A DNA stretch of 64,000 bases from Deltaproteobacteria bacterium RBG_16_49_23 (GTDB lineage Bacteria; Desulfobacterota; BSN033; UBA1163), in NCBI GenBank assembly GCA_001798855.1, contig MGQQ01000106.1:1-64000 (forward strand). The letters run 5' to 3'. The notes beneath the pieces are model-generated. The model ran no database searches. It had not been told where the DNA came from and saw only the letters and a program-made list of their open reading frames with translations. Positions 9,045 through 27,476 of this stretch are shown here, in pieces. Each line of letters opens with the position of its first letter. Positions within the stretch are counted from its first letter, which is position 1. Both the position numbers and the translations under genes were made by a program.

Positions 9045-9134
9045 ATTTTCCCTCCTCCTTTTTTAAATTGCGGAATTAAGCCCCGAAATCCATATTTTCA
9101 TTCCGCATTCCAAAATCCGAAATCCGAAATCGAA

Positions 9135-9881
9135 TCACCTCCTTTCCGAAGAGATGTGCCAGGCGATCACCCGTTTCTCGATGAGGGCGATCACTCCGAC
9201 AAAAGAGAGACCCAGCAGGGAGCAGGCGATAATGCCTGCAAAGACACGGGGAGTGTCCATGATATAGATCGCATCCACAATTAAAAAGCCCAATCCTTTA
9301 TAGGCCCCAAAGACTTCGCCCACGACTGCGCCGATAACCGCCAGGGTCCAGGCGACCTTAAAACTGGCGAATATCTGGGGAAGGGCGAAGGGAAACTGGA
9401 GATACCAGAATTTTTGCCATCGGGAGGAATGGTAGGAATCCATCCATTTCACTTCCGATGCTCCAACAGAGGCAAGGGATTTAAAGGTGGGTCCCAGGAC
9501 CGGGAAAAAGACGCAGATGACGGCCGTGATCACCTTGGACCCCATTCCGCTTCCGAAGATGATGACAATCGGCGCCGCAATCGCCACAATGGGAGTGCTA
9601 TTGAGAATGACCGCATAAGGGTAAAACATTTCCTTCAAGGGCCGGAACCAGAGAAAGAAGATCGCAGCCAGGATGGCTGAAAAAGAGCCGATGATAAACC
9701 CCAATCCTGCCTCCAGAAGGGTCATCGAAGAATGTAAGGCAAGAAGCCCGGACTTAGCAATGATATAGGAGAGGATTGTGGAAGGGGCGGGGAGAAGGAA
9801 TCTCGGGATCTCCAGCCACCTCACCAGAAGTTCCCATAAGATTAAAATACCGACAATGGAGCCAATGGAGTACCGGTTCAT
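9135..9881 (-). CDS. ABC transporter permease, NitT/TauT (SsuC/TauC) family
   Basis: 248 aa, multiple TM helices, FKVAWTLAVIGAVVGEVFGAYKGLGFLIVDA permease EAA-type region. Confidence 0.9.
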   Translation of the reverse strand: MNRYSIGSIVGILILWELLVRWLEIPRFLLPAPSTILSYIIAKSGLLALHSSMTLLEAGLGFIIGSFSAILAAIFFLWFRPLKEMFYPYAVILNSTPIVAIAAPIVIIFGSGMGSKVITAVICVFFPVLGPTFKSLASVGASEVKWMDSYHSSRWQKFWYLQFPFALPQIFASFKVAWTLAVIGAVVGEVFGAYKGLGFLIVDAIYIMDTPRVFAGIIACSLLGLSFVGVIALIEKRVIAWHISSERR

Positions 9882-9988
9882 CTTCTCAATTTCGTATTGC
9901 GGAATTCGGATTGCGGAATTTTAAACCCTAAATTAAAATTTGGAGCTGCAGGTTTGATAATCCGCATTCCGCAATCTGCAATCCGCAT

Positions 9989-10501
9989 TTAGAGACGGTT
10001 CTGGTTCATAAACCTGCCCTGATAGGAGGCTTCTCCCTCGGTGCGTTGCAGGACGAGCTGGCATATCCGGACACCGGGTTTCAAGACAAGCGGGAATGGC
10101 GCAAGGTTTCCGATCTCAAGCACCTGGCGATTATTAATCCCAGGCTGGACAAATCCCGCGGTCATGTGGATCACCAGCCCCATCCGGGCAAAGCGGCTTC
10201 TCCCTTCGAGCCAGCCGCAGATGTTCGAAGGGAGTTTGACTCTTTCGCGGGTAATTCCCAGGACGGTTTCGCCGGGCATCAATGTGAACGAGTCTTCTGT
10301 CGTAATGCGTTCGGTCAGGTCTTCCACCGAAATGTTATCCTCCACGGTCAGGGCATTTCGGAGTTTCTTAAAGACACGAAATTCTTCCCCCAGATGAAGG
10401 TCGATCGAACCCGGGCCAATCTGGTCTTCGATAAACGGCTCAATCTCAATCGTTCCCCGCCGGATTTCCTTCAAAATTTCTTCTCTTGTCAAAACTCCCA
10501 T
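9989..10501 (-). CDS. dcd: dCTP deaminase
   Basis: MGVLTREEILKEIRRGTIEIEPFIEDQIGPGSIDLHLGEEFRVF; GWLEGRSRFARMGLVIHMTAGFVQPG. Confidence 0.9.
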   Translation of the reverse strand: MGVLTREEILKEIRRGTIEIEPFIEDQIGPGSIDLHLGEEFRVFKKLRNALTVEDNISVEDLTERITTEDSFTLMPGETVLGITRERVKLPSNICGWLEGRSRFARMGLVIHMTAGFVQPGINNRQVLEIGNLAPFPLVLKPGVRICQLVLQRTEGEASYQGRFMNQNRL

Positions 10502-10697
10502 AAGTTACCTCGCAAATAAAAGCATTGGGTTAAGGTTAGGGTAAGGATGCCAGTTTCGTTGTTGGGTAAAGGCAAGGGTTTAAATCATTAGCCCTAACCC
10601 ATTGACCTTACACCATCCCGGCTTCTTAGCCCTGACCTCTTCACCTTGCCTAAAAGGTCATTTTCATGGTTCGCGATTGATGCTCCGCCATGAAGGA

Positions 10698-13600
10698 TTA
10701 CCTCATCATTAATATATCCCGATGGTATTCCTGGATTGATTTAACGGAGATACCCTTTTTGAGAAGAGATTCGATGCCATTGACCACTGCTTCAGCGCCG
10801 GAGAGAGTGGTAATGCAGGGGATGTTATGGGCAACCGCCTGGCTTCTGATGGCCCCTTCATCGACCTTGGGCTTCTTCCCGCTCGGGGTATTGATGACGA
10901 GCTGGATCTCTCCATTTTTCATCCGGTCCACGATATCGGGTCTTCCTTCGCCCACCTTGAACACGCTTTGAACCGGAATGCCGTTGTTCGCCAGGACCTT
11001 GGCCGTTCCCTTGGTGGCCACAATTTCGAATCCGAGATCAGCCAGCTTCTTGGCGACAAAAACGATGGATCGCTTGTCCTTATTCATCACGCTGATGAAG
11101 ACCCTCCCCTCCATCGGGATGGAGGCGCCGGCCGAAATTTGGGACTTGGCAAAGGCCACGCCGAAATCGGTATCGATCCCCATAACCTCCCCTGTCGATT
11201 TCATCTCCGGACCCAGAACCGGATCGACCCCGTAGAATCGCTTAAAAGGAAAGACCGACTCCTTGACAGCGATATGATGAATCTCCACTTCCCTCTCGAT
11301 TCCGAGCTCCTGAAGGGTCTTTCCGACCATCGCCTTGGCGGCCACCTTGGCCCATGGAATCCCCGTGGCCTTGCTGATAAAGGGAATGGTTCTCGAGGCC
11401 CTGGGGTTGACCTCCAGAATAAAGATCACATCGTTCTTGATGGCATACTGAATATTCATCAAGCCCACGACCTGGAGTTCCCTGACGAGCGCATAAGTAT
11501 TCTGCTTCAACTGTTCGATCAGGTCATCGCTCAGCGAGTAAGGGGGGGTGACACAGGCGCTGTCACCGGAATGGATCCCCGCGGCTTCGATATGTTCCAT
11601 GATTCCCGCGATGATGCAGGACGATCCATCTGAAACGGCATCGACATCGATCTCGATCGCATCTTCGAGGAATTTATCGATCAGGATGGGATGCATGGAA
11701 GACGCTTCCACGGCCCGGTGAACGAAGCGCTCAAGGGTGGCCTCGTCATAAACGATCTCCATTGCCCTTCCGCCCAGGACATAAGAAGGCCTTACGACCA
11801 CCGGATAACCGATGTCCTCGGCAACCCTCCTCGCCTCGTCAAAGGAGGTCGCCGTGCCATTCGGAGGCTGGATAAGACGGAGTTTATTGATGAGGGCCTG
11901 AAACCGTTTCCGGTCCTCAGCCTTGTCGATATTGTCAGGGCTTGTTCCAATGATCTTCGCCCCTGCCTTCTCCAGGGGAACAGCCAGATTGAGCGGGGTC
12001 TGGCCCCCGAATTGCACGATGATGCCGTCGGGTTTCTCCCCATCGACGATGTGAAGGACATCCTCGAGGGTGAGAGGCTCAAAGTAGAGTTTGTCAGAGG
12101 TGTCGTAGTCCGTCGAAACCGTTTCCGGATTGGAGTTGACCATGATCGCTTCGTAACCCAGCTCCTTGAGGGCAAAGGAGGCGTGGACACAACAGTAATC
12201 GAACTCAACGCCCTGGCCGATCCGGTTGGGACCTCCGCCGAGAATCATGACCTTCTTTCTCGAAGAAATCTTTACCTCATTCTCCACTTCGTAAGTGGAA
12301 TAATAATAGGGAGTGTAGGCTTCGAACTCGGCCCCACAGGTGTCGACCAGTTTATAGGTGGGGAGGATGGATCTTTCTTTTCTCATCCTCCGGATCGTAT
12401 TCTCATCGAAACCCAGGAGGTATCCTAACTGGACATCGGAGAATCCAAACTCCTTTGCCCTTCTTAAAAGTTCATCGGGAAGGCGGAGATGATCAGGTGT
12501 GCGGGTTTTTTGCCAGAGTTCAAGGTCCCTCATCTTTATTCCATAAGGGCGGATCTCTTTCTCAAATTCGACGATCTCCTGAATATTGAAGAGGAACCAG
12601 GGATCGATCCTGGTCAGCTCATAAATTTCTTCTACATTCATTCCCATGAGAAAGGCGTACCGGATGTAGAAGATCCTTTCCGCATCGGGCGTGCGAAGTT
12701 TTTCCTTGATCTGCAGGAGGGTCTGGGAACGGGCGGAATCGCCTGTGATCTCGTCCGGGAAAATCTTATCTTTTCCGTCCGCCCCCAGACCGAATCTTCC
12801 GATCTCCAGAGACCGGAGCCCTTTTTGGAGGGCCTCTTTGAAGGTCCTGCCAATGGCCATGGTCTCGCCAACCGATTTCATAGAGACGGTGAGCGTTGGG
12901 TCCGCATCCGGAAATTTTTCAAACGTAAACCGGGGGATCTTCACGACGCAGTAATCGATCGTCGGCTCAAAAGAGGCGGGCGTCTTCCGGGTGATGTCAT
13001 TCGAAATCTCATCAAGCGTATATCCCACGGCTAATTTTGCGGCAATCTTGGCAATCGGGAATCCCGTTGCTTTGGAGGCCAATGCGGAAGACCGGGAGAC
13101 CCTCGGGTTCATCTCAATGATGACCATCCGGCCATCTTCGGGATTGACCGCAAACTGAATGTTGGAGCCTCCGGTTTCCACGCCGATCTCCCGGATCACG
13201 CGGATCGCGGCATCCCTCATCCTCTGGTACTCTTTGTCTGTCAGGGTCTGAGCCGGGGCTACCGTGATGCTGTCTCCGGTGTGAATACCCATGGGGTCGA
13301 AGTTCTCGATGGAACAGACGATGACGGCATTATCATTGAGGTCCCTCATCACCTCCAGTTCAAACTCCTTCCATCCGAGGACAGCCTCTTCGATCAGAAT
13401 CTCTCCGATCATGCTCCATTCTAGCCCCCGGGCGGCCATCTCTTCAAACTCCTGGATATTATAGGCGACACCGCCTCCGGTGCCGCCCAGCGTGAAACTG
13501 GGCCTGATGATCAACGGGAAGCCGACCTCTTTTGCCGCCTCGATGGCCTCGGACATCGAGGCGGCCAGACCGCTTCTGGGGAGATCGAGGCCGATCTTTT

Positions 13601-14009
13601 TCATCGACTCCTTGAAGAGTTTCCGGTCCTCTCCTTTTTTAATCGCCTCATATTTGGCCCCGATCATCTGAACCTGATATTTTTCAAGGACTCCTGTCTC
13701 ATAGAGGGCCACAGAGACATTCAGGCCGGTCTGGCCGCCCAGGGTGGGGAGCAGGGCATCCGGTCGCTCGCGCTCGATGATCTTTTCCACGATTTCAGGC
13801 GTGATCGGCTCAATATAAATGCGGTCAGCCATCTCAGGGTCGGTCATGATGGTGGCGGGGTTGGAGTTGACCAGCACCACTTGAAAGCCTTCTTCCTTTA
13901 AGGCTTTGCAGGCCTGCGTGCCGGAATAGTCGAATTCGCAAGCCTGGCCGATGATGATGGGGCCGGATCCAATGATCAGGATTTTCTTGATATCCGTCCG
14001 TTTAGGCAT
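10698..14009 (-). CDS. carB: Carbamoyl-phosphate synthase large subunit
   Basis: 1103 aa; [41 protein letters not shown]; duplicated ATP-grasp domains, C-terminal MGS-like domain. Confidence 0.98.
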
Positions 14010-14130
14010 AAAATATAGTTTCGTTTAAGGTTCGCTTCGCTTGAGGATTGAGGTTTGAGGCAAAACAGTTTTTTTCTGCCTCAAGTTCTCCAGAGGAGAA
14101 CGCTCCTCCAACCTCCAACCTCTATCATTT

Positions 14131-15273
14131 TCACTTCGAATCTTCTTCCATCATCTTTACAAATTCACCAAAGAGTTTTTGAGTGTCGTGAGGACCGGGA
14201 GAGGCTTCGGGATGATACTGGATCGAAAAAATCGGCATTTTTTTGTGTTTCATTCCCTCGAGTGTCCTGTCGTTGAGGTTGATCTGGGTCAACTCGATCT
14301 CATCCGTGTTGAGAGAATCCGGATCGACAGCGAACCCGTGGTTCTGGGAGGTGATCGTCACCTTGCCGGTTTTCAGATCTTTGACCGGCTGATTGGCCCC
14401 ATGGTGGCCGAACTTCAGTTTAAAGGTTTTGCCTCCCAAGGCCAGCCCCAGAAGCTGATGTCCGAGGCAGATGCCGAAGATGGGTTTCACTCCGATCAGT
14501 TTCCGGACCGTTTCAATGGCATAGGGCACTCCCTCCGGATCGCCCGGACCGTTGGAGAGGAGAATCCCATCCGGTTGGTAAGAGAGGATCGATTCGGGCT
14601 GAGAAGAGGCGGGCAGGACGGTCACCTCACAGCCCCATTCCCGGAGGGAACGGAGGATGTTGAACTTCACGCCGAAATCCATAACGACCACCCTTGGCCG
14701 AAAGTGGAAAGTGGAGTGTGGCTGGTTGTGAAGAGAGAATTCCGAGTCAATCCTCTCGGTCCATTCATAGGGTTTCTCGCAGGTGACTTCTCTTACCAGG
14801 TCCCGTCCGATCAAGCCCGGAGATGCCTGCACTTTCTCAATGAGACGCCCACGATGAAACTCTTCGGTGGAGAGGATCGCTTTCATGGCTCCCTTTTCAC
14901 GGATATATTTGGTGAGGGCTCTTGTATCCATTCCCTCGATCCCGATGATGCGGTGTGAAATCAGATACTCGGAAAGGGACCGATCTCCACGCCAGTTGCT
15001 GAAGCGGGAGCTGTTCTCTTTGATGATAAAACCTTCCACCTGCGGATCCCGGGATTCGGTATCCGCCTCATTGATGCCATAATTACCGATGAGGGGATAG
15101 GTCATAATGACAATCTGTCCCTTATAAGAAGGATCGGTCAGGATCTCCTGATAACCTGTCATGCTCGTATTGAAGACGAGTTCGCCTGCCTTCTCTCCGG
15201 GAAATCCGAACGACCTTCCCTCGAATATGGTCCCATCTTCCAGGGCGAGGATGGCTTTCTGCGTAGGTTTCAT
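14131..15273 (-). CDS. carA: Carbamoyl-phosphate synthase small subunit
   Basis: 380 aa; LALEDGTIFEGRSFGFPGEKAGELVFNTSMTGYQEILTDPSYKGQIV; GICLGHQLLGLALG glutaminase motif; QYHPEASPGPHD. Confidence 0.98.
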   Translation of the reverse strand: MKPTQKAILALEDGTIFEGRSFGFPGEKAGELVFNTSMTGYQEILTDPSYKGQIVIMTYPLIGNYGINEADTESRDPQVEGFIIKENSSRFSNWRGDRSLSEYLISHRIIGIEGMDTRALTKYIREKGAMKAILSTEEFHRGRLIEKVQASPGLIGRDLVREVTCEKPYEWTERIDSEFSLHNQPHSTFHFRPRVVVMDFGVKFNILRSLREWGCEVTVLPASSQPESILSYQPDGILLSNGPGDPEGVPYAIETVRKLIGVKPIFGICLGHQLLGLALGGKTFKLKFGHHGANQPVKDLKTGKVTITSQNHGFAVDPDSLNTDEIELTQINLNDRTLEGMKHKKMPIFSIQYHPEASPGPHDTQKLFGEFVKMMEEDSK

Positions 15274-15287
15274 AGAATCCTTTTTTT

Positions 15288-15343
15288 ATGTAGCGTCGGC
15301 ATTTACCCGCTGCGACAGCGCGGCGAGTTGCCGACGCTACATA
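15288..15343. repeat. Short palindromic element with near-perfect terminal inverted repeats ATGTAGCGTCGGCA / TGCCGACGCTACAT
   Basis: ATGTAGCGTCGGCA at 15288 and TTGCCGACGCTACAT ending at 15343; partial related sequence ATGTAGCGTCGGCATTGATTGCCGACG near 31198. Confidence 0.8.
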
Positions 15344-15367
15344 TGCCTCCAATCAATGGAGGCGCTA

Positions 15368-15420
15368 CTTAACTCCTCCCTACCTCCCCTTATTTTAAGG
15401 GGAGGTAGGGAGGAGTTAAG
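15368..15420. repeat. Perfect 25-bp inverted repeat with 3-nt loop in the carA leader
   Basis: CTTAACTCCTCCCTACCTCCCCTTA-TTT-TAAGGGGAGGTAGGGAGGAGTTAAG read directly. Confidence 0.9.
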
Positions 15421-15465
15421 GGAGGGGCCAAAAGTGAACAGAGAAGGTAGAAGGTTATCTCCTCA

Positions 15466-15510
15466 TAAAAAAAGACCCCCGATCCCCGTAGGAAGGGATC
15501 GAGGGTCTTT
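15466..15510 (-). terminator. Intrinsic-terminator-like hairpin upstream of carA (possible attenuator)
   Basis: Minus strand AAAGACCCTCGATCCC TTCCTACG GGGATCGGGGGTCTTT followed by a T run. Confidence 0.65.
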
Positions 15511-15759
15511 GATTGAGTTCTTCCCCGTTTGGCCATAGCATCTTTCTTAAAAATTTCTGTTTTATTAACATGCCCGATTTCAGTTGTCAAGATTTGAGAT
15601 TTCTGAAAATGCCCAGAAACCTCTGATTACACCGATTAGCTTTCGATTACCCAGACAAAAAAACGTTGAGAAATGATGGGAATCTGCGTAATCATCTTTT
15701 GAAATCTGTGTAATCGAGAGAGCATATAGTATTTTCGAGAGATCTCATGACAATCTTGA

Positions 15760-16047
15760 TCAGGCATGGACGTAGACTTTTGTCCTGGTCGGTCTGGCCA
15801 TCAGTTTGTCGATCTTAGCCTGAACCTTCTTCCTTTCCGGATTCTTTTCCCATGCCTTCCACTCGTCAACGCTCTCCCACGTAGTGATGACGATATAATT
15901 GGAGTGGTCATTCAGTGAGCGAAGCGTCTCACCCGAGATATAACCTTTGGACGGCACCACCTTTGATCTCAACTCCCTGAGCAGTTTTGCAAACTCCGCT
16001 TCCTTTCCCTTCTTCACCTTCCTGTCAATGATAATTCTCACAGCCAT
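15760..16047 (-). CDS. Antibiotic biosynthesis monooxygenase (ABM) domain protein
   Basis: 95 aa; MAVRIIIDRKVKKGKEAEFAKLLRELRSKVVPSKGYISGETLRS...YIVITTWESVDEWKAWEKNPER. Confidence 0.85.
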   Translation of the reverse strand: MAVRIIIDRKVKKGKEAEFAKLLRELRSKVVPSKGYISGETLRSLNDHSNYIVITTWESVDEWKAWEKNPERKKVQAKIDKLMARPTRTKVYVHA

Positions 16048-16137
16048 AGGCGTCCACCTCCTTTATTTCTTTCATCCTACCAATTGTTTCCGGCCATTTC
16101 AAGTAAAAAATGTTCGAACCGGCCCCATTAAACTATT

Positions 16138-19100
16138 TTAATGATAGCCTTCCAAGCTGCCGGTGGGGACGATCCAGCGGAAATCTTCCGGGGTAACGGT
16201 TTGAAGGCGGCCGTCGATTCTGGCAGTGAGATGGCCATTCTCCCTGGAGAATCCGAGGCCGAAGGCCTTCTCCAGACGGAGGAGACGCTCTCTGATGTCA
16301 TTCCATTTCCTATCATCGACCGGGTTCAGCCTGCATCCCTGATACTGGGCTTTTTCCAGTCTATCCGAGGGATCGAAAAAGAGGACTTCTCCGGCAGAGG
16401 CGCCTGCAAGGATTTTTGCCCCTGTATAAGGGGAGGCCATCCGGCGAAGCTGCCCTTCCTGGTCACGATAAAGCCCCAGGAGGATAACCGATCCTCCCAT
16501 GAGGGCCTGGCAGAGATGCTCATAGGCCGTCCCAACGATGTTCACCTCCAGGCCCGGTCCGCGAGGATCGCTGACAGCACAGACCCATCCGCGGTCCACC
16601 ACATTGCCGAGAATGTTGAAAGTTCCTCCCTTGGCAGCATATCCAGCGACCTTGCCCACGTCACCGTGGATTTCCAGGGTCCCTGAATGCATGACCATTC
16701 CAGTGAAGTTCTGGGCATGATTGTGGACCCTTATCAACGCTCCCATATTGAAGGCGCCGCAGTACTCTCCCGGGCTTCCATAAACATCCACCGTCGTATC
16801 CGGAGTGAAACCAGAACCCATGCCCATGCCTATGCCCCGCTGGCCTTCCACCCTGTAGACAATGAATCTGCGCCATCCCATCCGGTGGGCATGATCGAGG
16901 AAGCAGCCTAAAACTTTTGAAGGATCGACTCCTTCAGGCAGGAATCCTCTGGCATCCACCACAAGCGCCTGCCCATTCTCTTCGGGTCCGTTCAGCTTTC
17001 CGGCATTGGCTAAATGGATACGAATCAACCCATTTTGGCCATTCACGTGATCAAGCATCTCGTTGATGTGGTTCTGTACAATATGGAAAAGGGCTCCCCG
17101 ATCTTTGCCGCCTGTATCCCAGCCGGGCAAATAGTCATAGATGCGGGTCAGCTCTTGGATGGCTCGTTTTTCAGGAAAGTCTCTGCGTACTTTCTCCAGG
17201 ACTGCCTTAAATTCACTGAATCTCCATTGCGAAATCCGATCCCGGAAGAGATCTATAGGATTGAAATCCCCGTTGACATCCATCGTTACCCCTCCGGAGG
17301 GAGAAGTTTCTTCAACAGGAAAGGTTCCGTGAGGAATCTCTATCGGCTGACCGAATTTGTCCAGCGCTTCATGCCCTATGATCTTTCCTGCTTCGTCGTA
17401 GAAGACCCTGCTCACCATGCCTGTTTTAACTGTAAAGTTCAGGGGAGCATAGGCGCTTCGCACCATTCCCAGGCGATGAAGTTCCTGCATTCCCGCATCA
17501 CACCCCTGTTTTTCAGAGCAGATGATACTTACGAAGTTCTCTCCGTCGTCATAAAGCAGGGCGACATTGGGTCTCAACAAGGATGGGTCGATAATGTCGA
17601 GCCGTTCAATCACCCGCCGATAGGGATCGATCCGGCCACAGAGATACTGATAGGGACCATCCGGCGCGCTTTCAAGCTCCGCCTCCTGAATGTGCTCGAA
17701 CCGTTCCCGGACCTCAGGGGGCAATTGAGTGAGATGGAACCCCGTGGTAGGGGAGAAGGATTCGACGAGTCCATCGAAAGGATAGTGAAGGCACTGACTG
17801 AGGAGGTGAAGCTTGAGAGAGGCCACAGCCGTATCGGTCTGAGCAAGGGGGGTCAAATCGAACTGAGAGACTCGATTCAACATGGTTCGATAATTCGTTG
17901 TTTCTCCATTATGCGTCAGGGCTGTGTGGAGCTCTGCAAAGGGGTGGGCATTCATCTGGTCAACCACAGAACCTGTAGCGAGCCTGCGGTGGATGACATT
18001 GACTGGAGCATCTGGCGTTTCCCATGGGATGTGCTGACCGTCTGTCTTCCAGCAGCCGGAATTTTTGCCACAGGAGAGAACAGCGACCTTCTTCTGTTGA
18101 TCTTCCACATAATTTTCTTGCGTGATCCTGCGAGAAAGCCGGTAGATATACTCATCCTCGGCTTCCCGTAAAAAATCCGCATTTGCCCTGTAATCTTCAA
18201 GGGTCAGGTCCGGATAGCGGGTCTGCCGTGGAGGCCAGATTGGGTCATTGAACAGTTCGTTTTCAATAAACCGACAGAGCTCTTCCCGGTGAACCCGCAC
18301 AAAAAGCCGGAACACATCTCCCGGATCTTTCTCGCCGTAAAGCCGGAAGTCTTTCTCCCTTCTCATTTCGTCGCGTTTATAGGGAATGCGGCAATTCTCC
18401 GGTTCCCCATCGAAGTTCTCGATTTGAAGCCCGTTGAAATAGCGTTTCAGCGCCTCGTCCATAATCTTCCGGCGTCTGGCCAGAATTTCCTGTCTGGCCC
18501 TTCGCTGAATTTCTTCCGGATCCATCTCCGGTTCTCTTACCGAATATTCACGCTCCACCTGCGATTGAGACAGGCCTTTGACCAGCACATGAATGGCATA
18601 GTGGTCCAGGTGTTGGGGATAGCATCCTCCCTTCCAGATTCCAACCCCATCCATTCCCCGGTTTGCCATCCGGTCGAGCATGAGATCCATGACACGGGCC
18701 GGGATGAAGTGATTGGAGACAATGGCTGCCACACCGCAATCCGAAGGAGGAGATGGGACTTCGGCGTAGAGAGAGTGGTCCCCAATATACTCTTCGGGTC
18801 TTTCCGGTATGGTGGTGGCCGGTCTTCGAATATTCAATCGGCTGCTGCGGCGACTCTTCACTCTTTCTTCGAACACAGGCCATTCAATCAAGTCATAGCG
18901 GCCCCGGAGCTCCCGAATGTCCATCAGTCCAAGGGCAGCAACCGCCCTTGTGACCTGGGCCTGCAAGGTTGCGCGGAAATTGATCAGCTGCTGGGTATTG
19001 GTTTCAACATCTCTTAACAACTGCATTTTGGGCTCAATGGTGGAAATGCCGCTCCTGCATCCCGATTCGCAGTTCCGATCCCGGACGCAGCCAATGGACA

Positions 19101-22100
19101 CAAGATCGGCTGTTCCAAGGACAACGCCATCGAGTCCCATGGCGATCCCTTTAATGATATCCCCCCATGTGCGAAATCCACCGCTTCCCAGGAAGACGAC
19201 ATCATCCCTCAAGCCGTCCTCTAACAATTTTTCGTGACAGAGAGGAATGGCGTACTCCATGTGCATTCCCATTTGACCTTTGATGATATCCGGGGCTGCG
19301 CCCGTTCCTCCGCGGGGCCCGTCCAACCAGACCTCAATGGTCATCCTGTTATCCCTGGCAATCCGGGCAAGGCCGGAAACGATAAATTCGATATCCGGCG
19401 AGGGTGAGACCTTAATACAGATGGAGGCCCCTGGGTTGATCATGCGCACAGCGTCGATGAAGGCTTTGACGTCTTCAATGGAGTAGCAATTGTGAAAGGG
19501 AAAAGGAGAGATAAGGCTCACCCCCTCAGCCACTCCGCGGAGCTTTGAGACAAGACCGAAAACTTTTCTCCCCAATAAATGGCCGCCCACTCCCTGTTTT
19601 GCTCCCTGGCTGTAAGCGATCACCACACGCCGGGCCTTCCGGATAGTCTCCTTGGTTACCCCGAAGAGCCCGGTCTTAAGCTGGGTGGCGACATAGGGTT
19701 CATCTTCCGGCATGACGATGGGGACGAACTGAACCGTCATGGAAGAAGGATATTTTTTGAGGACATCGAGTATCCCCTGAATTTCAGGAGAGCAATCCAT
19801 TTCCGCCTGGACCTTTTTCATCAGCTCGTCAATCGGAATGAGTTTTCGGGCTTTCATGATTCGGCTGAGCATCAGGATTTGCGATTCGGACAGGTCAATG
19901 GCATTCCATTTTTCATCGAGAATGTAGAAGGTGGGATATCCCCCTTCCCCTGTATCCATCTGAGTTTCAAGGGCCCGGGTTGCTAACACACGGGCACGCC
20001 AGGTCCCGGGGCCGATCGACCCAATGGACATCCCCGCGCCGATTAAAGGCGTCTTCAGCCTCAATTGAGGATTGATCTGGAGCCCGGTGAAGACCTGGTC
20101 GAGGTTCTCTTCCGGAAGGGTATCCGGGTTATGCTGAAAAAGGACATTGATAAAATCAAAGCCATCCCCCAGATTTCCGCGTTCCTCCGTATGACCGAGA
20201 AGAAGCGTCTCGCTATTTCCACTCGCCATGCGACTTACCGAAGCGATCAGAGAGGCTGGCCAGACGTAGTCACGATCGAAGATTTTATAACAGGAAGGCT
20301 TTAAATCACAGTTATAAAATCGATGGGGGGGCTGGGCTGGTTTGATTAAGTTTTTCAATTGACGATATCGCCAGCCGTTGCCATCTCCTTCCCGCCGAAT
20401 ACGCGACCCATTGGTCAGGCGGTTCCGTTCCAGCTTGTCCCGGCTTTTGAAAATGTCGTATACTCTTTCCTCGAGATCATCGAAAATGAGAAGGCGATTT
20501 TCTTCTCCCACGGTCTTCTTAATGTCCTTAAATCCCGAGGCCCCTAAGACCTCAATGATCTGGACATTCCAGACCCGTATGAGATTGGTAATCCGTTTGG
20601 ACAGGGTGGAGGGGTCGTGCAGAAGCGCTAAAGGCTCCCCTTTGAGAAACCTCTGCCGGGCAAGAGGATTTACGGTGAGAAGAACCGGCCAATCGATTTT
20701 GATCCCGTTCGCCCCGCGCTGAATGGTTTTCTGGGAATCCGCAGCGGAGCGAATGCCTCCGGCTGCCAGAATGGAAAAACGGTGCCGGATTTTTCTCTCC
20801 ACAAGGTAGCGATGGACAGCGGGGACGGCATCCGTGGTCAGGTAATATCCTTTTTCCGGATCGTAGTCCGAAGTGAGACAGAGTATGTCGAAAGGAGATT
20901 CGACAAGGGATTCTATTTTTTCCTTCAATACGGAAGCGGGCCGAAGCTCTGAGTCAACATCCCCCTTTTCAATCTTAATCACAGCGCTGAAGAGAGTCGA
21001 TTTTGGAAGACGAGCGGCAACTTTTTCTGTTTCTATTATAGCGACATCCTCAAACTCCATCTCCACCATGTCGGGAGGAAAATCCTCCACTATTTGGGGC
21101 CAGGCTTTTCCATTCTGGAGGTTTTTGATGTCCTGAGAGGTCAATCTCAAGATGACGCTGCCTGGCTTATCTGCAATGATCGAGGCATGACGCTCCATTT
21201 CCTCAAGATGGAGCGTGAGACGGGTACCCGTATGATGAACCGCCTCGAGCATGGCGCCCACCAGATCGTCTCCTCCGTCCATGGGCATGACATCCAGGAT
21301 GAGGGGCGTTTTTAAACTGATCAGCCGGGGAGGAGGGGTTTTCAGATCTTCTCCGATAAAGGTAAGATATTTGGGCCGCTGTCCCAGTAAGACGGCCACG
21401 GCATCGGCAGAGCTTTCATAGAGCAGGTTCTGAGCGGGACCCACAATATGAAAGTGTCCGAACCGGATGCCATCATTACCGGAACCACGATGGGGATCTC
21501 CTTGCCCCGTGCCTGAAACCGGAATCTTTCCTGTGGTGGCTTCGAGGTCGATATGGGTGATGACCTCGCTATCCCAGTAGGGATCATGCATGCTGAGGTA
21601 ATCGGGGTGGAGCTCCACGGTGGTTGCCGGAATTCCCTTGGCCACCTGCGGACACCGCTCAAGGCAGGCGCCACAGCCCCGGCAGAGGGCTTCGTCGGCG
21701 ACGACCACCCGGCGGGGGGCCATCTCATCCCTTTTCCTGACGCTATAAATACAGGCATCCACGCAGGTCCCGCAATGGAAACAAAAATCGTCGTCAATCA
21801 CAACATGGTACCTTGGAAAGGTCTGCCGCTTTTCTCGAATCTTCTGGTCGAAGCCTGTCCGGATAACATCCAGAAAGCGATAAAACTCAGGGCTGTTTTC
21901 CACTTCCCGGATAAAATCGGTTACTTCTTTAATGGGGAAATCGATCAAAGTGGAGAAGTATTTTTCCAGGTGGCCATAGAGCTTTCGATGGTTCAAATTG
22001 ACCTGGCACCCTTCATCACAGCGGCCGCAGTGAAGACAGAAATAGAGAGGCAAGATATTCGATAACTTAAGTTGATTCGTTTCCAAAGCTCTTTTGATGG

Positions 22101-23757
22101 TCAGAAGCTTCCCGCGGGCCGAAAAGGTTTCATCTCCGGTGGCCCGGAAAACCGGACACCGGCCGACACAGCTTCCACATTGTGCGCAGGCGTGGATGTC
22201 GTTCGAAATCTCTTTGAGGCCCTCTGGAATGACCGGGACCTGACGCCGGAGTTTTCTTTCCGGGATGAGGGAAAAGAATTTCAGGAGGAGCCACTGGGTG
22301 GCGGCGAGTTCAAGATTGAAGAGGTCAGCCTGGAAAAGGAGTTTCTGGAGACGACCGAGTTTCCCTGAGACGGAAAAGAATTTTCCCGGATTGAGGATTC
22401 CCTGAGGATCGACTTTCTTCTTATATTGAATGAGCCTTTTCCGCTCTTCTTTCGGATAGAGATGGCGGAGGAAAGGGGTGTTCCAGATTCCCAGGCCATA
22501 AGGCTTCCCTCCATAGAACTGGACAGCCAGCCTGACCATCATGGGAATAAGCAGAAGATCTGCGTAGAAAATGGCCTTCCGGTGGTCTGTGGCGATCATG
22601 GCTAAAAAGAGGGCCTGACCATCTTTTACAACATGAGAGGATGGATAAAGGGTCAATCCCAAACGTTTTCCCCAATCTCTAATCTTTTCGTGATAATCGG
22701 CAACTTGATCCAATGGGAGCAGGACCTCCGTGGCCAGAAGGGAAGGCCCGAGCGTCTTGATAGACATGGGGAGAAACCGTTCCTCCCAGAGGGCGTGAGC
22801 TGATTTTTCATCTCCAGGTTGAATTCTTTTTTCCTCAAGATAGGTTTTGAACTGGTTGGCCTTTTCCTTTTCGGTAAACACAGCCAGCGCGATGTTCTTA
22901 TCGTCGATCGTGATCTTCCCGTTCGACAGGGACTTGAGGGCCTGGATTAATTCGGTATGGTAGACGACGAGATCATCGGGTTTGATCGAGGGAAGAAGGG
23001 AAACCTGGTTAACGAACGTATAAGCGGCTTTTGGCTCCTTAAAGGGGATGATAAAGGGATAGCGCTCGGAAGGCTGCTTCCCAACCCGAAGAACGGCTTC
23101 CACAATGATTCCCATCTGCCCTTCCGTTGAGAGAAAATGGGTTATCTCCGGATCCTCTGCCTTTAGATTTAAAATATTCCCATCGGGAGTGATCACCCGG
23201 ATGGAAATCAACTGTTCCCGGACCGGACCGTGGGAGAAAGTGCCAAATCCCATACCTCCTGTGGCGATCCATCCGATCAGGGTGCCGCCTTTCCCTGAGG
23301 TCATGCTGAGAAGGGTTAAGCCCTGACGTTCCAGGGCCTGATGGATGTCTAAGAAACGAGCTCCGGGCCCTACAGTCAGCCGGGGCGTCCCGGGATCCAC
23401 CTCAATCTTATCCATGAACCCGAGATCGATCACTATCCCGCCATGGGTGGGGACCGATCCGCCATATCCCCATGTCCCTGCGCCGCGGACAGTCACAGGA
23501 ATTTTGTGCAACCGGACAAGCTCAAAGATCTTCAGGAGATGTTCTTCTGCTTTAGGTTGAATCACGAGGTCCGGCAGACTCTTAAGCAGGAGATCACGGA
23601 TCAACGGAGGAAGATCAACATTCAGATCATTTCGGTAATACTCAAGCTTTTCGGGATCTTCGATGGCCTTCAGGTCGGGATTGCGCTGTAAAAAATCTTC
23701 AAGGTATTTTCTCCAGCCTAATTTTTCTTTCTTCTGGTCCACTTTAATTACCCTCAC
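16138..23757 (-). CDS. Giant multidomain glutamate synthase-like fusion: FAD_binding_4 (GlcD-like) + GlcF-like Fe-S + 2x[4Fe-4S] + GltB-type FMN domain + class II glutamine amidotransferase + GXGXG domain
   Basis: Uninterrupted 2539-aa ORF; VTVRGAGTWGYGG (FAD); CAQCGSCVGRCP, CLHCGRCDEGC, CFHCGTCVDAC, CRGCGACLERCP (Fe-S); GAKQGVGGHLLGRKV...SIEDVKAFI...GPRGGTGAAP...GCVRDRNCESGC (GltB FMN/[3Fe-4S]-like); DCGVAAIVSNH...LATGS..NAHPF..THNGETTNY..TDTAV (GATase II); VYGSPGEYCGAFNMGALIRVHNHAQNFTG (GXGXG). Confidence 0.9.
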   Translation of the reverse strand: MRVIKVDQKKEKLGWRKYLEDFLQRNPDLKAIEDPEKLEYYRNDLNVDLPPLIRDLLLKSLPDLVIQPKAEEHLLKIFELVRLHKIPVTVRGAGTWGYGGSVPTHGGIVIDLGFMDKIEVDPGTPRLTVGPGARFLDIHQALERQGLTLLSMTSGKGGTLIGWIATGGMGFGTFSHGPVREQLISIRVITPDGNILNLKAEDPEITHFLSTEGQMGIIVEAVLRVGKQPSERYPFIIPFKEPKAAYTFVNQVSLLPSIKPDDLVVYHTELIQALKSLSNGKITIDDKNIALAVFTEKEKANQFKTYLEEKRIQPGDEKSAHALWEERFLPMSIKTLGPSLLATEVLLPLDQVADYHEKIRDWGKRLGLTLYPSSHVVKDGQALFLAMIATDHRKAIFYADLLLIPMMVRLAVQFYGGKPYGLGIWNTPFLRHLYPKEERKRLIQYKKKVDPQGILNPGKFFSVSGKLGRLQKLLFQADLFNLELAATQWLLLKFFSLIPERKLRRQVPVIPEGLKEISNDIHACAQCGSCVGRCPVFRATGDETFSARGKLLTIKRALETNQLKLSNILPLYFCLHCGRCDEGCQVNLNHRKLYGHLEKYFSTLIDFPIKEVTDFIREVENSPEFYRFLDVIRTGFDQKIREKRQTFPRYHVVIDDDFCFHCGTCVDACIYSVRKRDEMAPRRVVVADEALCRGCGACLERCPQVAKGIPATTVELHPDYLSMHDPYWDSEVITHIDLEATTGKIPVSGTGQGDPHRGSGNDGIRFGHFHIVGPAQNLLYESSADAVAVLLGQRPKYLTFIGEDLKTPPPRLISLKTPLILDVMPMDGGDDLVGAMLEAVHHTGTRLTLHLEEMERHASIIADKPGSVILRLTSQDIKNLQNGKAWPQIVEDFPPDMVEMEFEDVAIIETEKVAARLPKSTLFSAVIKIEKGDVDSELRPASVLKEKIESLVESPFDILCLTSDYDPEKGYYLTTDAVPAVHRYLVERKIRHRFSILAAGGIRSAADSQKTIQRGANGIKIDWPVLLTVNPLARQRFLKGEPLALLHDPSTLSKRITNLIRVWNVQIIEVLGASGFKDIKKTVGEENRLLIFDDLEERVYDIFKSRDKLERNRLTNGSRIRREGDGNGWRYRQLKNLIKPAQPPHRFYNCDLKPSCYKIFDRDYVWPASLIASVSRMASGNSETLLLGHTEERGNLGDGFDFINVLFQHNPDTLPEENLDQVFTGLQINPQLRLKTPLIGAGMSIGSIGPGTWRARVLATRALETQMDTGEGGYPTFYILDEKWNAIDLSESQILMLSRIMKARKLIPIDELMKKVQAEMDCSPEIQGILDVLKKYPSSMTVQFVPIVMPEDEPYVATQLKTGLFGVTKETIRKARRVVIAYSQGAKQGVGGHLLGRKVFGLVSKLRGVAEGVSLISPFPFHNCYSIEDVKAFIDAVRMINPGASICIKVSPSPDIEFIVSGLARIARDNRMTIEVWLDGPRGGTGAAPDIIKGQMGMHMEYAIPLCHEKLLEDGLRDDVVFLGSGGFRTWGDIIKGIAMGLDGVVLGTADLVSIGCVRDRNCESGCRSGISTIEPKMQLLRDVETNTQQLINFRATLQAQVTRAVAALGLMDIRELRGRYDLIEWPVFEERVKSRRSSRLNIRRPATTIPERPEEYIGDHSLYAEVPSPPSDCGVAAIVSNHFIPARVMDLMLDRMANRGMDGVGIWKGGCYPQHLDHYAIHVLVKGLSQSQVEREYSVREPEMDPEEIQRRARQEILARRRKIMDEALKRYFNGLQIENFDGEPENCRIPYKRDEMRREKDFRLYGEKDPGDVFRLFVRVHREELCRFIENELFNDPIWPPRQTRYPDLTLEDYRANADFLREAEDEYIYRLSRRITQENYVEDQQKKVAVLSCGKNSGCWKTDGQHIPWETPDAPVNVIHRRLATGSVVDQMNAHPFAELHTALTHNGETTNYRTMLNRVSQFDLTPLAQTDTAVASLKLHLLSQCLHYPFDGLVESFSPTTGFHLTQLPPEVRERFEHIQEAELESAPDGPYQYLCGRIDPYRRVIERLDIIDPSLLRPNVALLYDDGENFVSIICSEKQGCDAGMQELHRLGMVRSAYAPLNFTVKTGMVSRVFYDEAGKIIGHEALDKFGQPIEIPHGTFPVEETSPSGGVTMDVNGDFNPIDLFRDRISQWRFSEFKAVLEKVRRDFPEKRAIQELTRIYDYLPGWDTGGKDRGALFHIVQNHINEMLDHVNGQNGLIRIHLANAGKLNGPEENGQALVVDARGFLPEGVDPSKVLGCFLDHAHRMGWRRFIVYRVEGQRGIGMGMGSGFTPDTTVDVYGSPGEYCGAFNMGALIRVHNHAQNFTGMVMHSGTLEIHGDVGKVAGYAAKGGTFNILGNVVDRGWVCAVSDPRGPGLEVNIVGTAYEHLCQALMGGSVILLGLYRDQEGQLRRMASPYTGAKILAGASAGEVLFFDPSDRLEKAQYQGCRLNPVDDRKWNDIRERLLRLEKAFGLGFSRENGHLTARIDGRLQTVTPEDFRWIVPTGSLEGYH

Positions 23758-23785
23758 ATTTATTTGTCCATTACTTACCCTTGAA

Positions 23786-23966
23786 CCATGAAATCCCCCT
23801 CAATCCCCCTTTTACAAAGGGGGATAAATAGCCTCCCCTTGGTCTCCGACTCAGAGCGGTCTCTGACCCGGAGGGCAAAGGGAGGAATTCCCCCTCTTTG
23901 GAAAAGAGGGGTCAGGGGAGATTTTCACAACAACATGTCTTTTCAATTATAGACTCCTTAGTAAAG
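23786..23966. repeat. Dispersed palindromic repeat, family B copy 1
   Basis: Ends in AGAGGGGTCAGGGGAGATTTTCACAACAACATGTCTTTTCAATTATAGACTCCTTAGTAAAG; shared with copies near 36012 and 46184. Confidence 0.75.
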
Positions 23967-23988
23967 AATATATTTTCCGAGCAACCTT

Positions 23989-25317
23989 CTACAGAATCGG
24001 TAGATATTTCTCCAGCTCGAATTGGGAAACATGTGTCCGGTATTGATCCCATTCGATCTTTTTATTCTCGATAAATTTTTGGAAGATGTGCTCCCCCAGC
24101 GTTTCCCTGACCAGCTCACTTTTTTCTGTGAGCTGGATGGCCTCCAACAGGTTTCCCGGAAGAGAATCGATCCCGTGTCTCGCTCTTGCCTCCTCATTCA
24201 TCTCAAAGATGTCTTCTTCAACGGGCGGAGGAAGCTCATAACCCTTTTCCATTCCCTTTAAACCGGCAGCCAACATGACGGCGAATGCCAGATAAGGATT
24301 GCATGCCGGGTCAGGGGACCGGAGCTCGATCCGTGTGGCTTTCTCTTTTCCCGGCTTGTACATGGGGACCCGGACAAGGGCAGAGCGATTCCTCCGGGCC
24401 CATGAAATATAGACCGGCGCTTCATAACCCGGGACGAGTCTCTTATAGGAGTTGATCCACTGAGAGGTGATCGATGTGATCTCCTTCGAATGTTTGAGAA
24501 TTCCAGCAATATAGGACTTTGCAATCTTTGAAAGATGGAATTCGTCTTTCGGGTCATGGAAGGCATTCCTATCGCCCTTGAAAAGGGATTGATGGGTATG
24601 CATACCGCTGCCATTCTGCTTGAAAATGGGTTTGGGCATGAAGGTGGCGTAGACGCCATGCTTCAGGGCAATCTCTTTGACGACGAGGCGATAGGTCATG
24701 GCATTGTCCGCCATGGCCAGGGCCTCGGCATAACGGAGGTCAATCTCATGCTGGCTGGGCGCCACCTCGTGATGGCTGTACTCCACATGAATCCCCATGG
24801 CCTCCAGCGTGAGAATCGTCTCACGGCGGAGTTCGGTCGCCATATCAAGGGGGGTCAGGTCAAAATATCCCCCCTTATCAAGGATCTGCGGGACGCCATC
24901 GCTACTTTTAAAATAGAAATATTCCAGTTCAGGCCCAACATAGAATGTATAGCCAAGATCCTGCGCCTTTTTGAGAGTCCTTTTTAAGGCCCACCGGGGG
25001 TCGCCCTTATAGGGGGTTCCATCGGGCTCATAGATATCTGCAAACATCCTGGCCACGGCATTCTCTTTCGGCCTCCATGGCATGATCTGAAAGGTTTTCG
25101 GGTCAGGCTTGGCGATCATGTCGCTCTCATCGATACGGGCATAACCCTGAATCGAGGAGCCATCAAATCCCATGCCTTCTTCAAGAGCCCCCTCCAGTTC
25201 GTCGATCGTGATTGCAAACCCCTTTAAGAACCCCAGAATGTCCGTGAACCAGAGCCGAATAAATTTAACATCATTCTCCTTTGCCATCTTCACAACATTT
25301 TCTTTCTCTTTATCCAT
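23989..25317 (-). CDS. glnA: Glutamine synthetase type I
   Basis: GFDGSSIQGYARIDESDMIAKPDP, NGSGMHTHQSLF, RSPDPACNPYLAFA; start set at MDKEKENV with SD ggaggag (ORF track starts at 25338). Confidence 0.97.
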   Translation of the reverse strand: MDKEKENVVKMAKENDVKFIRLWFTDILGFLKGFAITIDELEGALEEGMGFDGSSIQGYARIDESDMIAKPDPKTFQIMPWRPKENAVARMFADIYEPDGTPYKGDPRWALKRTLKKAQDLGYTFYVGPELEYFYFKSSDGVPQILDKGGYFDLTPLDMATELRRETILTLEAMGIHVEYSHHEVAPSQHEIDLRYAEALAMADNAMTYRLVVKEIALKHGVYATFMPKPIFKQNGSGMHTHQSLFKGDRNAFHDPKDEFHLSKIAKSYIAGILKHSKEITSITSQWINSYKRLVPGYEAPVYISWARRNRSALVRVPMYKPGKEKATRIELRSPDPACNPYLAFAVMLAAGLKGMEKGYELPPPVEEDIFEMNEEARARHGIDSLPGNLLEAIQLTEKSELVRETLGEHIFQKFIENKKIEWDQYRTHVSQFELEKYLPIL

Positions 25318-25387
25318 CTTCTCCTCCTTTTTTCTCACTTTTCCCCTCTCCCTTTGGGGGAGAGGGATAGGGTGAGGGGAAAATATA

Positions 25388-25430
25388 AAAGGCGCCTCTT
25401 ATTCCCGGCCTTTGCAGGAGAGACGCCTTT
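25388..25430 (-). terminator. Terminator-like hairpin in the glnA 5' leader (possible attenuator)
   Basis: Minus strand AAAGGCGTCTCT...AGAGGCGCCTTT followed by TTATATTTT, between the sigma-54 promoter and the glnA start. Confidence 0.6.
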
Positions 25431-25472
25431 GTCAATCCGATACATCATCGTATCTTTAATCGAGATTAAGAG

Positions 25473-25488
25473 AGCAAATACCATGCCA
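25473..25488 (-). promoter_or_regulatory. Sigma-54 (RpoN) promoter of glnA
   Basis: Minus strand TGGCATGGTATTTGCT fits TGGCAYRNNNNTTGCW at every position. Confidence 0.85.
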
Positions 25489-25946
25489 CTGATACGGACC
25501 CGGCAGGATGAATCATCGCTTCATAACTTATTGTAATTTAATAATAATATGATTAAAAAGAATGTAGTGATTTCACGGGAGTGATTTGAAGATTGAAAAT
25601 AGGTGATGACTTTTCATCACCCTGTTTAAAAAAAGACAATTTCCATCGTCCATAGGCATAGATACTTACACCATAAAGTCTAAGAATTTGTCTCTAACTT
25701 TTTTTGGGATGTCTTAAAAAATCATCCCTCCCCTTCAAGGGGAGGGTTAGGGTGGGGATGGGACGATGAGGTTCTTGGGGAAATAGAATCCCATCCCCCT
25801 CCCAACCTCCCCCTTGAAGGGGGAGGGAATTATTTGGGAAGTTTCAAATATTTTTGCTTTGACTTTTTCCATTTTTTTCTTCTTTGCGGTTGACAAATCG
25901 GACCTTTTTCCATAAATTTATAATTGTGGACAGAAAGGGAGGTTTT

Positions 25947-26297
25947 ATGGAGATAGAAAAATTCTTGGAACTGATGAAGGCGTTAGAAAAAAAGAAGAAG
26001 GGAAAGAAAGAGGAGTTGGAAAAGTTCAAAAATTTCTTTGACCGGTTTCATCTGCTGAACCGGGCCTATCTGGATAAAGAAACGTTTGAAAAGGCTCACG
26101 ACTCCATTTCATCCATGGCAGAGGCGATCAGCAACACGATTCGTTATCTCGATGAGGAGATCGCCCGCTTGAGAAACAAAGGAAGGAAACAGCCCTTTGA
26201 GAATGTGGAACTTGCTGAAATGCAAAAAACACAGCACAAGAATGAGATGCTGATCAAGGATTTTTTAGAAAAACACGAACCCCCCACCAATAGGTAA
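25947..26297 (+). CDS. Small coiled-coil hypothetical protein
   Basis: MEIEKFLELMKALEKKKKGKKEELEKFKNFFDRFHLLNRAYLDKETFEKA; SD gggagg upstream of ATG at 25947. Confidence 0.65.
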   Translation: MEIEKFLELMKALEKKKKGKKEELEKFKNFFDRFHLLNRAYLDKETFEKAHDSISSMAEAISNTIRYLDEEIARLRNKGRKQPFENVELAEMQKTQHKNEMLIKDFLEKHEPPTNR

Positions 26298-26309
26298 CCA
26301 ACCGGCGAG

Positions 26310-27476
26310 TTAAGTGGCGCGGAGGGATTCGACGATGTTCATTCGTGCCGCTCTCACCGCCGGCAGCACGCCGCCGACGAAACCCATGATCAAAGAGAAG
26401 GCGAGAGCTTTCCAGGCGATGTCAAAGGAAAGCGCAAAATCGAAGGCCAGTTCCGAAAAGGTCTGAAAATTCATCGTCGAGACACTGAGGAATCGGAGAA
26501 AAGAGGCAAAGAAGAGACCTGCGCAGCCTCCGATCAGTCCGAGAAACAACGCCTCAAATAAAAAGGCGCCCAGGATGCTTAACCTCCGAAAACCAAGAGC
26601 GCGCATCGTGCCGATTTCATTCGTACGGGTTGAGACAGCGGCATACATGGTGATCATGGCGCCGATGATTGCTCCCAGGGAGAAGATGATCGTCAGGGAG
26701 GTCCCGAGGATACGAAGAAAGGTTGCCATCATCTCCGATTGCTCCGCATAGTAGCGGTTCTCCCGTTTTGCCTCGAGCGTCAGGCGCGGGTCGTTTTCAA
26801 TCCGTTTTTTAACGGCGTCAAACTGAGAGGGATCGCGTAATTTGAAGAGGACGGAAGAGTAGGCATTCCTCCGGAAGGTCTGCATCAACTGGTCCGCATC
26901 CCCCCAGATCTCCGAACTGAATCCCGTGTTTCCTGCATCGAATACTCCCACGACCCTCCATTCCCGCAAACCGAAATGGAGGGTTTCCCCCAGGCCGCCC
27001 CCTTTGAATCGCTCCGCCACACTCCGGCCGGCTATGATCTCCGATGATCCCGGTTTCAGGAGATGGCCTTCTATCAACCTTACCTGTGGCCGCAAGGCGA
27101 GGGAGCTCTTTCCAATGCCGCGGATGGTGACATAGGCTTCCTTATCGGTTCCACGCTTTGGAAGGCTGAGAATGATGACAGACTCCTTTGCAAGAAGGGG
27201 TTGCCCGTCTGCCCCCATGGCGATCTCCGGCTGGGTTTCGATGACCGAGGCCTGATAACGGTCCAGGCCACTCTGAACTTCCGTGGCAGCGCTCTTACGA
27301 ATGATCACGACATTCTCACTCGAACCTGTCTCAACCAGTGTCTTCTGCAAGCCTTCGGCCAACATCAGCATGGCCGCAAAAACAAAGACCACAAGGGCCA
27401 TGCCCGATATTGTAAACAGAGTCGTCAGCCTGCGTGTCCAGAGGTTACGAAAACTGTAAGAGAGAGGCACTCCCAA
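26310..27476 (-). CDS. ABC transporter permease, FtsX/MacB family
   Basis: 388 aa; N-terminal TM + periplasmic domain + C-terminal FtsX domain (VSTRTNEIGTMRALGFRRLSILGAFLFEALFLGLIGG). Confidence 0.9.
   Translation of the reverse strand: MGVPLSYSFRNLWTRRLTTLFTISGMALVVFVFAAMLMLAEGLQKTLVETGSSENVVIIRKSAATEVQSGLDRYQASVIETQPEIAMGADGQPLLAKESVIILSLPKRGTDKEAYVTIRGIGKSSLALRPQVRLIEGHLLKPGSSEIIAGRSVAERFKGGGLGETLHFGLREWRVVGVFDAGNTGFSSEIWGDADQLMQTFRRNAYSSVLFKLRDPSQFDAVKKRIENDPRLTLEAKRENRYYAEQSEMMATFLRILGTSLTIIFSLGAIIGAMITMYAAVSTRTNEIGTMRALGFRRLSILGAFLFEALFLGLIGGCAGLFFASFLRFLSVSTMNFQTFSELAFDFALSFDIAWKALAFSLIMGFVGGVLPAVRAARMNIVESLRAT

Follow-up and report, generated by a model that had tools for sequence, protein, structure and literature searches.

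For the glutamate synthases (GOGATs) characterised so far, the electron source is NAD(P)H or ferredoxin, and F420 has been proposed as a further one (PMC3448663). Glutamate synthases with alternative electron modules have been put forward earlier (PMC3448663, PMC9012536), and FGltS(I) and FGltS(II) of methanogens are putative F420-dependent glutamate synthases (PMC3448663). The protein described here resembles FGltS(I)/(II) in being a predicted glutamate synthase whose flavin/Fe-S electron-entry module is of an alternative type, but in the methanogen systems that module is a separate F420H2 dehydrogenase-type (Fsr-N/FdhB-like) subunit (PMC3448663).

With canonical GltB, whether NADPH- or ferredoxin-dependent, the protein shares an FMN/[3Fe-4S] core, the residue set of class II glutamine amidotransferases (GATases), a GXGXG domain and a degenerate barrel that precedes the FMN barrel. 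In contrast to GltB, its GATase cysteine is internal, a GlcD/GlcF-like and ferredoxin module lies at its N-terminus, and GltD is lacking. The VAO-type FAD proteins LctD, GlcD and D-lactate dehydrogenase have the FAD_binding_4 plus FAD-oxidase_C fold of this module, but in the protein described here their metal-site motifs are replaced by PYGLGIWN and the module is fused to a synthase. GlxBCD and MgsABC carry GATase, GXGXG and FMN parts as separate small subunits without a GlcD module. No report of this architecture was found in the open-access full-text papers searched, and the N-terminal module looks like an electron-entry module of a kind not described for glutamate synthase. The GS/GOGAT route of ammonia assimilation belongs to central metabolism; for it, an uncultured anaerobe lineage here appears to depend on one giant polypeptide that keeps the order of a four-gene operon and contains a flavin module of its own.

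Open reading frame and domain organization

The window analysed is a stretch of 64,000 nucleotides from contig MGQQ01000106.1 of Deltaproteobacteria bacterium RBG_16_49_23. Positions 16138–23757 of the minus strand form a single open reading frame (ORF) of 2539 residues, with a GTG start and no internal stops, encoding a fused glutamate-synthase-like protein that was analysed with Pfam and by alignment with 12 full-length orthologs. All features given below lie on the same strand. A first-pass annotation of the sequence had described an uninterrupted ORF with a rearranged domain order, the GATase following the FMN domain; both the positions and the order of the Pfam matches agree with it.

The N-terminal GlcD-like FAD module (residues 1–476; 22330–23757) is matched by FAD_binding_4 (residues 62–198, E 4.7e-29) and FAD-oxidase_C (residues 312–459, E 1.4e-7). 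It is followed by a GlcF-like Fer4_8 dicluster domain (residues 521–587; 21997–22197; E 8.8e-12) and a 2[4Fe-4S] ferredoxin domain, Fer4_10 (residues 651–703; 21649–21807; E 2.5e-10), both also seen in the alignment. The FMN/[3Fe-4S] synthase barrel (residues ~1185–1630; 18868–20205) is matched by Glu_synthase (residues 1222–1610, E 5.8e-74), in agreement with the comparison with GltB. The class II (Ntn) GATase domain (residues 1674–~2110; 17428–18738), delineated by alignments, gives a GATase_6 match at residues 1906–1978 (E 5.8e-6) that is slightly below the gathering score. The C-terminal GXGXG beta-helix region (residues ~2250–2539; 16141–17010), assigned by profile, contains a Pfam match at residues 2319–2471 (E 2.7e-9). 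Among the best 25 NCBIfam matches listed, none reached its cutoff with the ORF; the GltB model NF008730 scored 144 bits (cutoff 1047) and aligned to the FMN part only. Rfam gave no match over positions 9000–27000.

The degenerate barrel and the FMN barrel

The first-pass domain list was confirmed for every domain that it named, but it had overlooked two features: a second barrel before the FMN barrel and an insertion of ~70 residues within the latter. Residues ~715–1110 (20428–21615) match Pfam models weakly (Glu_synthase, E 1.2e-4; Glu_syn_central, E 0.07), and a profile of this region with its homologs from split operons (see below) aligns to the FMN barrel of GltB with an E-value of 1.1e-6. 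These profile matches identify the region as a second Glu_synthase-like barrel that is degenerate and lies where GltB has its central domain. The order is thus barrel-FMN-GATase-GXGXG, in contrast to GATase-central-FMN-GXGXG in GltB. AlphaFold models of residues 640–1672 and 1645–2539 each had a mean pLDDT of 57, probably as a result of a shallow alignment and too low for judging the GATase fold, an ammonia tunnel or the cleavage site, and fold matches were meaningful for the former model only. GltB chains were its top fold matches (E ~1e-14, ~800 columns, low TM), which gives weak support to a collinear arrangement of the first barrel and FMN barrel with the central and FMN domains of GltB. 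The Fe-S cysteines of the first barrel and a second ferredoxin domain, both present in the split proteins, are gone in the fused form.

The FMN barrel retains core motifs in common with Escherichia coli GltB (MSxG, GEGG, FGV, QGAK, GG-L-G-K, SP-P-H-YSxED and GGTGA) as well as three cysteines, C1557-x5-C1563-x3-C1567 (19057–19089), which align as putative [3Fe-4S] ligands. The insertion (residues ~1277–1348; 19714–19929) separates the GEGGYP motif from FGV and may cover the active site; it occurs only in the fused form and is absent from GltB and from the split relatives. A list of 2-oxoglutarate-binding residues in Azospirillum brasilense numbering did not fit the alignment and was discarded.

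Orthologs and selection

Full-length proteins of the same architecture were found in 12 other species, with sequence identities of 65–75%. When the ORF was compared with 85,462 species genomes, in a scan that matches exact peptide patterns and so detects close relatives only, 13 loci were returned, titled Syntrophaceae, Deltaproteobacteria, Thermodesulfobacteriota or uncultured. In a survey of the window's class, the fused gene was present in 15 of the 17 species of its own family and unbroken in 11. A further copy (about 67–68% identity; G047, loci L039/L059) belongs to a genome in a different family, which may reflect either horizontal transfer or a classification problem; by eye, it adjoins homoserine-dehydrogenase-like genes rather than glnA or carAB. 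The fused form is nearly confined to one family.

Alignment of the 13 full-length sequences revealed 1064 invariant positions, and the catalytic residues do not vary among the fused copies. Codon comparisons gave dN values of 0.07–0.28 for every domain, with dS of ~2 or saturated in most comparisons; by this measure, purifying selection acts on all domains. A few relatives appear broken, one by a 1-nt frameshift and one by an N-filled gap, the others by overlapping frames or contig ends. The single-base frameshift lies within the GATase of the G008 copy (L051, ~11600–11780) and is probably an assembly error; true gene fission in G008 and G016 was rejected in view of the frameshift and the N-filled gap, respectively. 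Such frameshifts and gaps would suit an assembly chimera or a misjoining of genes, which is nevertheless exceedingly improbable given 13 full-length ORFs from separate MAGs with purifying selection throughout. The concern raised at first pass over a hidden frameshift or assembly join was thus found to be groundless, as 12 independent full-length orthologs exclude an artefact.

Split operons and probable origin by fusion

Matches were found in 137 of 297 Thermodesulfobacteriota genomes. In the loci examined, these modules are encoded, with their order unchanged, by adjacent separate genes for a ferredoxin plus barrel protein (~465 residues), a ferredoxin plus FMN synthase (~515 residues) and a GATase plus GXGXG protein (~880 residues). 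In five loci (L041 and L055–L058), these three genes are preceded by a GlcD/GlcF-like gene of ~620 residues. The fused ORF is therefore best read as a fused four-gene operon, and an in-place fusion would be the simplest account of its sequence. The first-pass annotation could not tell how widespread the architecture was; it is not isolated, being apparently a fusion of a gene set that is widespread in Thermodesulfobacteriota.

Across the split loci (L041–L068), the FMN part is 42–49% identical to the fused protein, the GATase/GXGXG part 30–36%, and the GlcD/GlcF module, which shares the PYGLG motif, ~30%. These loci differ from the fused form in their separate genes and in keeping the second ferredoxin and the Fe-S cysteines of the first barrel. 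None of four split components compared with NCBIfam reached a cutoff among the models listed. In three loci (L047, L063 and L066), the ferredoxin plus barrel and FMN synthase genes are already fused (~990 residues), such that separate genes, partial fusion and complete fusion form a natural series for studying enzyme assembly. In a tree of the GATase/GXGXG part, the fused clade has support of 100/100 and the branch that joins it to the split forms is saturated, so divergent is this part; consequently, a specific donor operon cannot be singled out, and the tree does not show direct descent from a sampled operon.

The three-gene split operon is widespread in Thermodesulfobacteriota and apparently uncharacterised. 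Among the loci L042–L047 and L060–L068, it is often found beside genes for FlpD/MvhD, a MetV-like protein and MetF, and sometimes HdrA or glnA, so that folate-type reductase genes adjoin a glutamate-synthase-like operon. In four-gene loci, a PPDK_N-domain protein (~861–867 residues) adjoins the GATase gene (L055, 2954–5557; L056, 12995–15580; L058, 2715–5300), the domain having been assigned by Pfam for L055 only.

A GATase domain in mid-chain

Class II GATases such as PurF, GltB and GlmS work through an N-terminal cysteine. The ORF contains the class II set of Cys, Arg, Asn-Gly and Asp, and these residues (C1674, R1700, N1950, G1951 and D1975) do not vary within the fused clade or among 18 split relatives of ~30% identity; the match of a whole-GltB profile to the domain is weak. 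However, the predicted nucleophile, Cys1674 (18736–18738), is internal, with 1673 residues before it. It is preceded by a hypervariable linker (residues ~1640–1671; 18745–18840), a predicted propeptide-like tether, which varies in both length and sequence among orthologs and has a dN of 0.85–1.4, compared with 0.07–0.28 for the domains. Straight after this linker, SDCGVAA is invariant in the fused clade. In the split relatives, the cysteine follows an N-terminal extension of 30–90 residues that ends in GG|C and resembles the propeptide of GltB and PurF. No conserved in-frame start codon before Cys1674 was found in the orthologs compared, and production of the GATase chain from an internal translation start was judged unlikely for this reason.

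Since a class II GATase needs an N-terminal cysteine and Cys1674 is internal, post-translational cleavage at 1673|1674 (SD|CGVAA) into two chains is predicted from the sequence. The single polypeptide of the first-pass annotation would then hold for the ORF, but probably for a precursor only. On balance, we expect the GATase to be active after this cleavage. The mid-chain placing of an N-terminal-nucleophile enzyme thus leads to a testable prediction of cleavage at a named residue.

The FAD module and its probable role in electron entry

The module retains the FAD_binding_4 plus FAD-oxidase_C fold and the FAD-binding region, and is GlcD-like in fold. However, the metal-site motifs GHxGDGNxH and GEHGIG are replaced in all fused and split copies checked. 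The position of GEHGIG in GlcD, D-lactate dehydrogenase and LctD is occupied by PYG(L/I)G(I/L/V)WN in every one of them, and in the window by K418-PYGLGIWN-426 (22480–22506). GlcD paralogs from the same genome served as controls: one (L002) has both motifs, and another (L003) has GEHGIG and HAGDGNLH. By its motifs, the module is thus not a standard 2-hydroxyacid dehydrogenase, and such likeness should not be taken as an indication of donor chemistry. The first-pass proposal of a fused flavin/Fe-S module as the probable electron input stands, but its likeness to 2-hydroxyacid dehydrogenases is one of fold only.

A role of the FAD module in electron entry is favoured, with fair confidence, by the order of the modules. 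The GlcD-like gene of the four-gene loci takes the upstream position often held elsewhere by the genes for FlpD/MvhD, MetV-like protein and MetF, which suggests that its product serves as an alternative route of electron input. Oxidation of an organic donor (e.g. D-2-hydroxyglutarate or D-lactate) through a remodelled site, such that electrons and possibly 2-oxoglutarate would flow directly into glutamate synthesis, would fit the retained FAD-binding GlcD fold and the conservation of PYGLGIWN in fused and split forms, which suggests a specific ligand; it is nevertheless somewhat unlikely, as none of the copies checked retains the second metal histidine or the Glu-His pair of GEHGIG. The shared upstream position could also mean that the module bifurcates or confurcates electrons, standing in for the MvhD, MetV, MetF and HdrA genes beside the split operons, and the nearest solved structures include LctD, a GlcD-like protein of a lactate dehydrogenase annotated as NAD/ferredoxin-coupled. 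However, no ETF or NAD-binding subunit was found next to the fused ORF, and we regard this reading as quite unlikely.

Genomic context

The gene directly upstream of the fused ORF is glnA (23989–25338), which the first-pass annotation had already noted as its direct neighbour, and this linkage is conserved in most copies. It encodes a type I glutamine synthetase of 449 residues by NCBIfam (544 bits against a cutoff of 429 for model TIGR00653), which falls under the cutoff of the type III model. Downstream of the ORF are the genes for a 95-residue ABM-domain protein (15760–16047), carA (14131–15273) and carB (10698–14009). This order, glnA-fused ORF-ABM protein-carA-carB, is retained in most loci, with a rearrangement in L030 and a different arrangement in L039. 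The ABM-domain protein is kept at the same spot, with 74–92% identity, in most relatives.

The fused ORF is the sole strong GOGAT match in its genome, and each of three other carriers that were checked likewise has one strong match, located in the fused ORF. Two genomes of the same family with at least 90% estimated completeness (G003 and G010) have neither the fused ORF nor a strong GOGAT match; the fused ORF is accordingly not universal in the family, and glutamate dehydrogenase or uptake may serve these two instead. The window's own genome contains one glutamate-dehydrogenase-like gene, so glutamate could also arise there by another route.

Proposed function and alternatives

The Glu_synthase match, the GltB core motifs and the conserved GATase set bear out the first-pass assignment as a glutamate synthase, and GOGAT activity of the product is likely from sequence. 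That the ORF is the organism's glutamate synthase, derived from a fused four-gene operon, is the overall explanation that we consider likely. Its modules are [GlcD/GlcF-like FAD and Fe-S protein]-[ferredoxin and degenerate barrel]-[FMN/[3Fe-4S] synthase]-[GATase and GXGXG]. The 2539-residue precursor would be cut before Cys1674, probably autocatalytically, into a redox chain of ~1673 residues and a GATase/GXGXG chain of 866 residues that would remain together. By its conserved residues and the precedent of GltB, Cys1674 would hydrolyse glutamine supplied by the adjacent glnA product, the ammonia passing to the FMN barrel, where FMNH2 would reduce 2-oxoglutarate and ammonia to glutamate. The module order suggests that electrons pass from the FAD module through the Fe-S clusters to the [3Fe-4S]/FMN site, from a donor presumably other than a 2-hydroxyacid oxidised by the usual metal-dependent chemistry. 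More tentatively, and with somewhat less than an even chance, the mid-polypeptide GATase would self-excise at Asp1673|Cys1674, and the resulting enzyme of two chains would be powered by a PYGLGIWN-type flavoprotein, a new subfamily of the VAO/GlcD fold, whose donor has no known link to ammonia assimilation.

The internal position of Cys1674 would also be expected if the GATase were never released, being inactive or structural, and the protein used free ammonia as an ammonia-dependent glutamate-forming reductase. This is unlikely: all residues of the catalytic set are kept unchanged down to ~30% identity, the sharp edge of linker variability before SDC is hard to explain if the domain is dead, and the linkage to glnA favours use of glutamine. 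MgsABC and GlxBCD are built with GATase, GXGXG and FMN parts homologous to these, and the FMN barrel here bears a unique insertion, as might be found in an N-methylglutamate-synthase-like or other transferase in which the same modules serve an amine donor or keto acid other than glutamine and 2-oxoglutarate. Such a transferase is improbable next to a glutamine synthetase that scores above the type I cutoff and is not of the GmaS (gamma-glutamylmethylamide synthetase) type, in a genome without another GOGAT. The gene pair that follows, carAB, encodes another consumer of glutamine.
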